From NCBI GenBank assembly GCA_964035545.1, contig OZ037773.1, positions 7,652,751 through 7,716,750 on the forward strand: DNA of 64,000 nt, written 5' to 3'. The position numbers and the translations under genes are program-made. The notes under the pieces were generated by a model. It searched no databases. It was not told the origin of the DNA and was given only the letters and a program-made list of their open reading frames with translations. This stretch comes from Bugula neritina (lineage: Eukaryota > Bryozoa > Gymnolaemata > Cheilostomatida > Bugulidae). Position 1 is the stretch's first letter. Every line of letters begins with the position of its first letter. This document shows, in pieces, positions 7,503 through 12,050 of the stretch.

Positions 7503-7506
7503 TTAA
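7503..7506. repeat. TTAA target-site duplication, left
   Basis: TTAA directly abuts the left terminal inverted repeat of the 4.54-kb element and is repeated at 12047-12050. Confidence 0.85.
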
Positions 7507-7567
7507 AGAATCCCTGACACACTTTACTTATATAGCACGAAAATATTCATCTATATCTTAGCTATCA
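7507..7567 (+). repeat. Left terminal inverted repeat of the TTAA element
   Basis: 61 bp matching the right end (11986-12046, opposite strand) at 58 positions. It contains a TATA-like ACTTATATAGCA that could act as promoter material at both ends. Confidence 0.9.
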
Positions 7568-8146
7568 CTAGACCACCCCTTTGAGGGTGGATGGCTAGAC
7601 TATTTTGTTTTATAACAAGATTAGTGCATGCATGTCCAGAAAACTTTCGGATTTCTAAGCTCTCAGTGCACACGTATTACGCCGGTTTCCGGTCTGCTTC
7701 GAGTCCTAGTTACTATATAACTAATAGTAATAATTGCATACTTTCACAGCGTTTTATTTTTAGCCACTGCAACACACAGATAAATCACTAAACTGACATA
7801 AATTTTAAAACACAGAGTACAACTAAGGCTCAATGAAAAAAACAAATGATACCATTTTATTATTGATATTAAGAGCTAAAGTTACTTCCGTTAGAAATTT
7901 TGAGCATCGGAAAAATGAAATAGCCTCACCCTCACGATGTAATTAGAACGGGTGGCTAAGTACGGCGATAACACGATATTGTTGAAAGAAATTAGCTAAA
8001 TCTAACGAGTGGTAAACTTTTCTATAAAACATTACAAATAATTGCATATTATTACGCTTCCAAATAGATTATCATTACCGTAACCGGATATTACCAATAT
8101 AACCTGTGCCTAGTAGTACTACTACTAGTAGTAGTCGCTCGCTATC

Positions 8147-8154
8147 TATATAAA
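8147..8154 (+). promoter_or_regulatory. TATA box candidate for the THAP gene
   Basis: TATATAAA lies 81 bp upstream of the chosen ATG at 8235, a plausible distance for a TATA box followed by a short 5' UTR. Confidence 0.45.
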
Positions 8155-8234
8155 TTAGATTTCATATTCATATTGCCATTGGACTCTAATGAACAAACTT
8201 ATTACCTATATTACTAGTTACACTTACTGTCGAC

Positions 8235-9479
8235 ATGACTACACGAATGGCTTCAAGTTCTAAAGGCAAATGCAAAAGAAGAGTGTGTGAAGCTGCAATG
8301 TGTTCGTACAAGGAAAAACACATGTTGATGTTTAAATGGCCTGCTGATACTGCGTGTGGTGAAAAATGGACCAAGTTTGTCAATACGAAAAGAAAAAACT
8401 TTCTGCCTGATAACAACTCTCGTTTGTGTTTTCAGCATTTTGGTGATGAACAATTTACAAACATGGGCATGTATAAAGCAAAACTCATTAACATGTAAGT
8501 GAATAACTCACTCAAACTCATAGTCATAGTGATACTGACTAATGACTTAGTGATTGTGATATAATTAGACGATAGGCTAATGATAGTTTTTTTAATGTTG
8601 ATTTTCAACAATAAGTATAACTATAACTATCAAGTATTACTACAAGTTGGTATAAGTCAATAGGATTGTCATGACCGTGTTGATTCAATTTCATGTGACT
8701 ATGACATAAACTTGCAAGTACAAGTTTGCATTTATGATTTACACGATAACCATTATTGTAAGGAAATTCATTTATAATGGCGATAATATGAAAGACTTAT
8801 GATTATCAGAATGTGTCATAGTCACTTGGATACATACCATTAATATTATGATTCATACGCACTGATACTCATGCTATGAGTATGATACTGGTAATGGTGC
8901 CCATCATCAATACCAGTAAAAATTAATGGTAAATATTGTTCACTTATTGAAAGAATAAAAATTCATTGTCTTTGATTTACTCTTTAGATTGCATTTAGAG
9001 AAAACAGCAGTCCCAACTATTCATTTAGTGGAAACTGAGGGTGCAACTGGATGCACTCCATTAACTCCTCGGAAACAAAGTCAGCAGGCGGCCACTATCA
9101 CACCTAAAGAAGCTCGCTGGTTAAAAAGAACAGACCCTGGTTTTCTGTAAGGATTATAATATTGAAAATGCGATCTTGAGCAATAAAATTGAAATATGAT
9201 ATAGACAGCAATGGAGATTTTCTGCAGCTGTTTCAATAATACTTTTCCAGTTACCTTCATATATAATAATATTTTAGAGCTTTGCCAAGTCAAACAAAAA
9301 AACCAGCTCTCCATCGTAAGCCAGAAAAGAAGGGCCTACAGAAAGGAATAGGACACAACAAATATGTGCAAACACCTAAAAGGATGCAGAAAAAGATTAG
9401 AAGCAAAGCTGTTCAATGCTGGTATATAGAAATATGGCGAAATAGTATTGTTCACTTAGCTCAAAAACTGAATTCATAG
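8235..9479 (+). CDS. THAP-domain DNA-binding protein, 206 aa, inside the TTAA element
   Basis: Three exons, 8235-8494, 8988-9146 and 9278-9479, joined in consistent phase 2. Residues 18-99 form a THAP zinc finger: Cys18 and Cys23, the FKWP segment, Trp45, the LPDNNSRLCFQHF block with Cys65 and His68, and the closing AVPTIH motif split by intron 1. THAP domains bind DNA with a C2CH zinc site and occur in P-element and Kolobok-type transposons and in host regulators. The remaining ~105 residues are Thr/Lys/Arg-rich (KKPALHRKPEKKG, PKRMQKKIRSK), probably nuclear localisation or further DNA contact. There is no room for a transposase catalytic domain. A likely role is binding the element's termini. 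AATAAA follows at 9593-9598. Its neighbour is the convergent ballast-like gene. Confidence 0.88.
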
Positions 9480-9592
9480 CTTTTCTCCATATTTATTTTT
9501 ATTTAAAATGCATGTTCTAATGCAACAAAAAACCAAATATTTTTGTGTAATGGAAATAATATTTTTAATTTTCCACCTCAAGGTGTGTCAAA

Positions 9593-9598
9593 AATAAA
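9593..9598 (+). terminator. Poly(A) signal candidate, THAP gene
   Basis: AATAAA 114 bp after the THAP stop codon, on the coding strand. Confidence 0.45.
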
Positions 9599-9786
9599 TT
9601 TGGACAATATATCTACTTGTAGTCTCAGTTTCCATTGAAATGTAGATATTGTAGAATATGATCTTAGAGTCACTTGAAAAGTTCAGCGCAAAAATAGTCA
9701 CCATATTGAAGTATATTCACCATTATTGCAACTCAAACTCAACGGTAAATTAATTTCAAAGGTCAGGGAGATTGCAAATAATGAGG

Positions 9787-9792
9787 TTTATT
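9787..9792 (-). terminator. Poly(A) signal candidate, ballast-like gene
   Basis: TTTATT on the plus strand (AATAAA on the minus), about 75 bp beyond the stop codon at 9867. With the signal at 9593 it leaves about 190 bp between two convergent transcript ends. Confidence 0.5.
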
Positions 9793-9866
9793 CTCATAGT
9801 AAGCTGTACACACTACAAGAGGCAGTAGCAACTGACTGCTACTAAAAATCACCAGAGTGTTAATGT

Positions 9867-11587
9867 TCATAAATCTTCATTGTACACGAATTTGCTGAAC
9901 ATCCATTCAGCAAATTCTTCCTCATCTTCAGTTGGGGGGAATGTAGCTTGCACCCAATCGTATAAGCAAGCTGGTAAAGGGCGTCTCTCACCCTTTTTAA
10001 TATCTGGAAACAGCCAGAACACCAAAAACCGGTAGCTGCAGAACCTTTTTTTAGTGTTGAGAGAATGGGCCTTCTCATCAAACAAATCATCTACCAAAAT
10101 AAATGATTGGCTAAATAATCAAGTAAGACTATCTAGAAAAACTAACAATGACAGTTACTGATCTACAGTAGCAATTGACTAACCATGATATCTCAGGTAG
10201 CTGCTGTATGCAACTTCTAATACAGCTGGTTGCGTCAATTGCTGTACTCCCGGGTGCTGTGTTATACATTCCATGCTGCTATCTAATCGAAGGTTTGCAG
10301 CATGATCACGGCAACAAACAGACTGTTCCACTGTAGGCTGATTTTGGCAGCGGTGGCAAGTGCACCACTCCGTGGCTGGCCTTATATTTTTCTACAAAAC
10401 AAACAAGCTTTTCTAAAAACGTTATTACCAGTATCATCCACATTAAGTCCATTAATTACTGTGTCTAAATTTGTTTCCTGTATTTTTCTTTGTATTGAAA
10501 ATTGAGTCCAATGAGGCTGAAGTTTGAAAATACTTTAAAATCATGGGTTTTAAAATATTCCAAGTTTGCATTACTGTTCAAACTATTTTTATATTTATAG
10601 TTGAAAATTAATTAGATTTTTTATATTAAAACAAACTCATAATTTTTGCTATGAAATAAACTAATTTTCAGAAATTTTAAAATATTTTATTGTTGTTAGT
10701 ACTATATGTTATACTATAAAAGCAGAAATTCAGAGAAATAGGGGGCTTAGAAATAAAATACTAAATGCTATCATCGTGAATGCAAGTTTGACATGATTAT
10801 GTATGTGATTAACTTATTTTGTTAAGGATCGGTATAACCACAATTACAATAAAAGTGAATAATAATTATCATTATTATGCATTTATAACAATACAGTCTT
10901 TCCCTTGACTTAAATTATCAGGTAAATCTAACTACAAATAATTAATACTAATACCTGTATTGGTAGTAGTAATAACAAAATTAGTATTGATCAAATATTT
11001 AATTACTTGACTGGAATTTGTAATCATTAAATTTAATGATTATCACTTTATTATTAATAATATTATATAAACCAATAGCAATCATCAAATATTTAGCTTG
11101 TAATTTGATATCATGCTTGCTCTAAAGCTTTAGTAGCACAAAACTCAGCTATATTAACTAATTAAGCCAGGATCAATACGAGCATTGGCATTGAGCATTG
11201 GAATTACGATTACAAAATGAAAATGAAATATTATAATTATAATAATTTATAACTTATACTAGCTTATACTTATAACTCAAAGTTAAAGTATTACTATTAG
11301 TATTAGTATTACTATTAGTATTACGGTATTAGTAACACTATAGTTTATAAAATTAAATCGTACTGATACTGTAAAATTATAAATATTATCACCTGTTGCT
11401 CATCAGTAACAGTAAAATCCTTGTCATGACTATCATCTCCATTTTCATCTTGATACGTAAACGGCTCAAACTGATAGCCCATTACTTCAGAAATCTCAGT
11501 GACAGCGTGAGTGTGATTGTCATAGTCATACTCATTGCGATTCTCACTGTGCTCTAAGTATTCTTCGTCAGAGCCAGATATGTTCAT
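9867..11587 (-). CDS. Stand-alone P2X7 ballast-domain-like protein, 208 aa
   Basis: Three exons, 11587-11393, 10391-10184 and 10090-9867, phases 0 and 1. The first exon is acidic and disordered, with the short motif GYQFEPF. Exon 2 starts the Cys-rich domain: EWCTCHRC, then SVCCRD, then ECITQHPG. Exon 3 has CSYRFLVFW and RRPLPACLYDWVQATFP. The order CC-R, CIT, C-x-YR and LP-x-C followed by an aromatic/basic stretch and FP matches the zinc-binding intracellular domain of vertebrate P2X7, but there is no ion-channel part. Stand-alone relatives are known from invertebrates; their function is unknown to me. Lying entirely within a TIR/TTAA-bounded element, it is probably an element-encoded accessory protein. 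It is translated toward the THAP gene. Confidence 0.85.
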
Positions 11588-11985
11588 ATTAATATCGTAT
11601 TTATGTTATTTCTGTATTAGGTTTATCTTTATCACAATTACACTGCACAGACTCGGACACGGTAAGTTGGTAGCTATGTATTTATTGCCGCGAAATTTGT
11701 TTATGAAATAAAACCTAAATTCCACAAAAAAATACTAATTGGGGGGCTAGACAGACGTCCGATAAATTAAAAATGCTAAAACTAAGGTTACATGCAACGG
11801 AAAATATAGCCTATACTTATTTTCCGAATGTCTTACAGGCGGCGTTTCCATCTATTTCTCGCAACTGCGGTGTAATACGTCACAGAAGGGCGAAAAAAAT
11901 TCTCGAAGTTTTTTTGGACATGCATGCACTAAAACTGTTATAAAACAAAATTGTTTAGACCTGAAACCCTAAAAGAGTGTTAAAA

Positions 11986-12046
11986 TGATAGCTAAGACAT
12001 AGATGAATATTTTCATGCTATATAAGTAAAGTGTGTCAGGAATTCT
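11986..12046 (-). repeat. Right terminal inverted repeat of the TTAA element
   Basis: Inverted partner of 7507-7567; the three differences are scattered single bases. TTAA follows at 12047-12050. Confidence 0.9.
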
Positions 12047-12050
12047 TTAA

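Follow-up and report, generated by a model that had tools for sequence, protein, structure and literature searches.

A Kolobok transposon of Bugula neritina that very probably lost its catalytic exons and kept a THAP gene and a KolX gene

In this study we analysed a stretch of 64,000 nucleotides of the Bugula neritina genome (assembly GCA_964035545.1, contig OZ037773.1, positions 7,652,751 to 7,716,750; referred to here as the window), and in particular a 4548 bp (~4.5 kb) element at window positions 7503 to 12050, on C9, which holds two convergent spliced genes. One encodes a THAP protein, the other a protein resembling the C-terminal ballast of P2X7. We are confident that this element is non-autonomous and derives by internal deletion from a Kol0-type Kolobok DNA transposon. 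The pair of THAP and KolX genes lacking a DDE domain is a shortened known element of an ordinary kind and not a new class. The original prediction knew of no such arrangement, but the pairing is already known: according to the available text of Kojima & Bao 2022 (PMC9587614), Kolobok elements of the Kol0 lineage encode a DDD/E transposase and KolX, a protein resembling the P2X7 C-terminal ballast, and P2X7 was proposed to have arisen by fusion with KolX.

The assignment to Kolobok begins with the ends of the element, which are as follows.

7503..7506, no strand: left TTAA target-site duplication; both ends are TTAA
7507..7649, plus strand: left terminal inverted repeat, starting with 5'-AG (the RR terminus of Kolobok)
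11904..12046, minus strand: right terminal inverted repeat, ending with CT-3' (the YY terminus)
12047..12050, no strand: right TTAA target-site duplication; both ends are TTAA

Including the TTAA, the inverted arms (7503-7649 and 11904-12050) are 147 nt long with 84% complementarity. In the outermost 61 nt our recount gives 58 matches, the number originally reported together with the TTAA duplication. From a set of 34 loci, 11 were left out of the analysis of ends (nine 'odd', two 'partial') and the 23 copies from which both ends could be cut out were scored. All 23 are flanked by TTAA at both ends and have AG...CT termini, and their flanks all differ. Kolobok is recognised by a TTAA duplication and by 5'-RR and YY-3' termini, the latter separating it from piggyBac (PMC9587614, available text). 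piggyBac shares the TTAA duplication, and the same source mentions a few piggyBac families encoding a protein like the KolX C-terminus. The window family differs from piggyBac in its AG..CT termini, its THAP domain and its D-D-E motif with DTWH, which point to Kolobok.

The exon borders of both genes were read from frames and splice signals and give the following structure.

8235..8494, plus strand: THAP gene exon 1, THAP domain (PF05485 match)
8988..9146, plus strand: THAP gene exon 2, with an AVPTIH box (frame and splice signals)
9278..9479, plus strand: THAP gene exon 3 (frame reading to the stop)
9593..9598, plus strand: AATAAA downstream of the THAP stop, within the former intron 3
11393..11587, minus strand: KolX exon 1, acidic N-terminus, ATG at 11587 (frame reading)
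10184..10391, minus strand: KolX exon 2, cysteine cluster WCTCHRC...VCC...ECIT (frame, Pfam and PDB matches)
9867..10090, minus strand: KolX exon 3 (frame, Pfam and PDB matches)
9787..9792, minus strand: AATAAA downstream of the KolX stop (sequence)

Two convergent spliced genes with their own poly(A) signals had been predicted, and the open frames of 206 amino acids (THAP, with GT/AG introns) and 208 amino acids (KolX), each followed by an AATAAA after its stop, agree with this. The 206-residue product of the three THAP exons matches the Pfam THAP family (PF05485, E 9.2e-8), and its AVPTIH box can be compared with the AVPTIF box given in the available part of PMC6004289, which also states that Kolobok transposases usually bear DDE, THAP and H2CH motifs. 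The final 19 codons of exon 3 run past the apparent donor of transposase intron 3 into the stop. Read from the sequence, this donor and the next acceptor in a longer copy, L018, appear to be in frame with each other. The 208-residue KolX product matches P2RX7_C (PF20478) above the cut-off, with E 8e-14, and a PDB search with it finds two P2X7 sequences (E 8.4e-5 and 5.7e-4), as expected from the proposed likeness to the P2X7 ballast. The conserved cysteine pattern is seen in the comparison with the P2X7 sequences, in keeping with the second protein of Kol0. A protein database search with KolX gave a single match, a 140-residue protein on a 679-bp contig. The Pfam P2RX7_C search of the genome returned no match anywhere, controls included, and is uninformative.

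Other copies are plentiful. The assembly (215.8 Mb in 295 contigs) was searched with a 34-nt terminus pattern at up to three mismatches, with the reversed pattern as control. The 66 termini found genome-wide (39 + 27), against none for the control, exclude a chance origin of the ends. Within 15 kb, 50 of the 66 pair into 25 elements and 16 stay single. The THAP exons and KolX exons 2 and 3 are carried by 22 of the 25 paired elements, with KolX exon 3 shortened in L026; for L022 and L032 the right-hand part holding KolX exon 1 lay outside the sequence read, and L031 was read partly. Both genes are gone from L021 (1160 bp) and L038 (408 bp). The copies are recent, as the window copy (L009) and L011 are 100% identical across 4548 bp. 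Identical ends around unrelated interiors, which had been named as a sign that the genes were captured by chance, are absent among the paired elements as read (L022, L031 and L032 in part). The insertions in L022, L032 and L031 were inspected at their borders and their identity was not recognised.

Two of the 16 single ends were inspected. L062 has a related end, 70% identical over about 310 bp. L063 has at 92-152 a 61-bp terminus 85% like that of the family and an interior unrelated over the 2.2 kb fetched. For L062 and L063 the opposite end was not located, and inspection of their frames by eye revealed no gene.

The transposase exons that are absent from the window copy, in accordance with the original observation that it has no DDE enzyme, are found between the same ends in L018 (C8:9090467-9097893, 7427 bp), the kind of longer copy whose search had been proposed as a check. 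L018 holds 2846 bp extra at the junction of the window copy, between the THAP and KolX genes. Encoded there are transposase parts, namely the acidic part, the zinc knuckle and the second-D/E part with DTWH. Pfam gives for the DDE region a sub-threshold Mutator-like match only (5.7e-5). The first-D region known from a related element on C6 is missing from L018, and 101 bp stand in its place (L018 3915-4015), which are an exact inverted copy of 7898-7998, the DNA just outside the right end. This inverted flank copy probably reflects faulty repair of the site. Among 11 genome-search matches L018 is the sole family copy with DDE exons; the other matches are at most 74% identical.

The C6 element encodes a THAP domain upstream of, and on one strand with, a full D-D-E (GDGRCDSPG ... 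TTDRH ... FDTWH ... SELEAFHA), and its KolX is convergent. A DDD/E catalytic motif with C/DxxH between the second D and the E is complete in C6, partial in L018 (second D, DTWH and E) and absent from the window copy. The THAP part belongs to a transposase by its PF05485 match, its AVPTIH box and its position in C6. C5 likewise has a DDE region and a convergent KolX, and over 2.9 kb it shares 88% identity with C6. The second-D region of C1:11886031 is 56% identical to that of L018. In comparison with a Kol0 Kolobok of the Kolobok-1_XT type, the window family is alike in its TTAA, its RR/YY termini, its THAP domain, the ballast similarity of its KolX and, in the longer sibling, a DDE region with DTWH. 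It differs in that the transposase exons from 4 on are missing from the window copy. KolX is encoded on the opposite strand there, a point described here for the window copy alone.

These relatives also bear on two other explanations. In the first, the window copy would represent a TTAA element class of its own, with the ballast-like protein or some unrecognised protein as its enzyme; a new class with an unrecognised enzyme was one of the possibilities given in the original prediction. A recent, multi-copy element with no DDE domain speaks for this, but the ends of L018, which are the same, enclose transposase exons, C6 has the same gene order, and KolX is a documented accessory protein of Kolobok (PMC9587614, available text). 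We therefore reject a new enzyme class, which is very improbable and not needed. In the second, THAP and P2X7-like genes of the host would have been captured by chance between Kolobok ends. Proteins with the ballast domain are found across the main animal groups (as far as the available text of PMC7016195 describes), which speaks for this. Against this, the C6 relative has the same gene pair in the same order, and a THAP domain is usual in Kolobok transposases (PMC6004289, available text). Since L018 and C6 carry a transposase and the pair recurs in C6, chance capture is rejected too, and we regard it as scarcely credible.

The boundaries of the missing stretch show how the shortened copies differ from each other. 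In the window copy the boundary is:

9648..9650, no strand: junction of the internal deletion, where 2846 bp present in L018 (transposase from exon 4 on) are missing; exact 3-bp overlap ATT

In L018 coordinates, the junctions of the family are:

2154/5001: class 1, seven copies (window, L010-L014, L016), exact overlap 3 bp
2394/4950: class 2, eight copies (L019, L020, L022, L023, L024, L027, L028, L029), overlap 1 bp, visible in L023 and masked in the other members by a nearby difference
2310/4810: L030, single copy, exact overlap 3 bp
2547/5130: L017, single copy, exact overlap 2 bp
2737/5159, plus a second small deletion: L015, single copy, exact overlap 1 bp
2336/5196: L025, single copy, 5 extra bases, no overlap
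2803/5257: L026, single copy, exact overlap 4 bp
2790/5223: L032, single copy, 55 extra bases, no overlap

Because the short copies keep differing, nested pieces of the inner L018 sequence, this inner stretch is ancestral and was then deleted. Six of the eight junctions (L030, class 2, L017, L015, L032 and L026) cannot be derived from each other by further deletion, exchange between copies being outside this comparison. All eight lie downstream of THAP exon 3. The six non-derivable deletions span 2.4-2.6 kb and leave KolX whole in four cases, minus one codon in L032 and about 12 codons in L026.

In our interpretation the longer ancestor had a transposase gene, in which THAP exons 1-3 preceded acidic, zinc-knuckle and D-D-E exons, and a KolX gene convergent with it. 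An internal deletion removed the D-D-E exons; it most likely arose when, following excision, repair copied the element inward from both ends and stopped early. What is left is an intact KolX beside a truncated transposase, whose THAP part terminates within the former intron 3. The filler sequences, taken from the flank in L018 and from the family's own terminus in L032 (17 of 18 terminal bases, read by eye, lie in its 55-bp filler), suggest faulty gap repair; the exact junction overlaps of 0-4 bp are weak support for it. Ds-type elements formed by abortive gap repair likewise have internal deletions between kept ends (PMC8700633, available text), and the filler in L018 and L032 fits such an origin. 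In the window family the exact overlaps measure 1-4 bp or are lacking, compared with 5-8 bp, and two reading frames are kept.

As no intact transposase of the family was found in the assembly, mobility was probably supplied in trans, one of the possibilities originally put forward, and the deleted copies would have moved with transposase from elsewhere. The KP element of Drosophila retains the THAP part of the P transposase. P elements with internal deletions, KP among them, resemble the window element in that the deletion leads to a short protein, and they can outnumber full-length elements; KP may act as a repressor, and defective P proteins occupy transposase sites (PMC12393704, available text). 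By analogy, we propose that the THAP-only protein would bind the ends and compete with active transposase. P elements belong to another superfamily, and the window copy also keeps KolX as a second intact gene. In the titles and abstract openings that our literature search listed we met no deletion derivative with THAP and KolX only, and do not claim that it is unpublished.

Another possibility is that the family has become a two-gene control cassette. Here only the catalytic exons would be lost repeatedly, through independent deletions, the THAP-only repressor and the KolX helper would regulate or assist mobility in trans and be kept by selection for better spread or for taming the autonomous element, and intact copies would all have been replaced. 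The six non-derivable deletions, sparing THAP exons 1-3 in every case and the whole of KolX in four, are consistent with this, as are the exons of both genes in 22 of 25 paired elements and the two open frames in five of the seven copies of class 1. A crude null of uniform placement gives about 3.5e-5 for the six, post hoc and with the trimming in L026 allowed. This value is no proof that the genes are under selection, because gap repair proceeding inward from both ends would centre deletions in the middle as well, and the uniform null is then the wrong one. Purifying selection is moreover not clear, and copies outside class 1 are often broken in either gene. We consider that both the cassette and its maintenance by selection are unlikely, and prefer an ordinary internally deleted Kolobok.

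Several observations weigh against this preferred interpretation or parts of it. No intact transposase of the window family was found in the assembly, and since L018, the sole copy with DDE exons, misses the first-D region, the autonomous source is one that we infer. A search of the assembly with the C6 first-D peptide matched three places, C6, C5 and C1:11886031, and gave no first-D exon of the window family. The termini of the C6 element were looked for and not recognised. The overlaps of 0-4 bp fall short of the 5-8 bp given for the repeats in the gap-repair model (PMC8700633, available text). When the joined flanks of the window element were searched in the assembly, no empty site was found and only its own two flanks matched. 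Among 20 copies longer than 4 kb, 11 have an open THAP frame and 12 an open KolX frame, where an ambiguous insertion at an exon border in L013 was scored as KolX not open; both are open in seven (L009, L010, L011, L014, L016, L017 and L020). The ratio pN/pS between two copy groups is 0.42 for THAP and 0.50 for KolX, based on 2-7 changes, and within groups ranges from 0.20 to 2.24 with frameshifted copies included, while introns differ by about 1-2%, as little as exons. Divergence between the copies is too small for selection to be claimed, and these data give repression of the KP kind no direct support.

The copies also differ in other ways. Many 6-bp insertions vary among the 20 copies longer than 4 kb at window positions 8037-8811 and 11060-11663, lying near the 5' regions of the two genes; between 8812 and 11059, insertions of at least 6 bp have no such pattern. 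Most of the 6-bp insertions consist of five duplicated bases and one additional base, frequently G or C (ATGTT-G-ATGTT near 8322 in the window copy), and longer ones are also seen, such as ATACT-CACTG-ATACT in L028. From their sequence, these insertions resemble the footprints that an element with 5-bp duplications leaves on excision, although those in the AT-rich repeats at 11253-11338 may be due to slippage.

KolX-like sequences are found elsewhere in the assembly. A repeat at C9:7254259-7254929 (L058), and also L060 and L061, contain a KolX-like stretch with stop codons inside; of 114 candidates for the L058-type repeat, at least 40 were scored as copies, with 99-100% identity and a length above 2.2 kb. 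At C6:12940873-12946177, of which L059 is a part, six KolX-like exons are spaced about 1 kb apart. The two units in L059 share 98% identity over 747 bp, and a cysteine-rich exon lies close by. This is possibly a host gene cluster.

Our results explain an odd gene pair and remove one candidate for a new transposon class. They also provide a clean, recent Kolobok example in which deletion copies outnumber full-length copies and, in one assembly, have seemingly replaced them. A family with an intact KolX in recently moved copies is furthermore usable material for studying the role of KolX in transposition.

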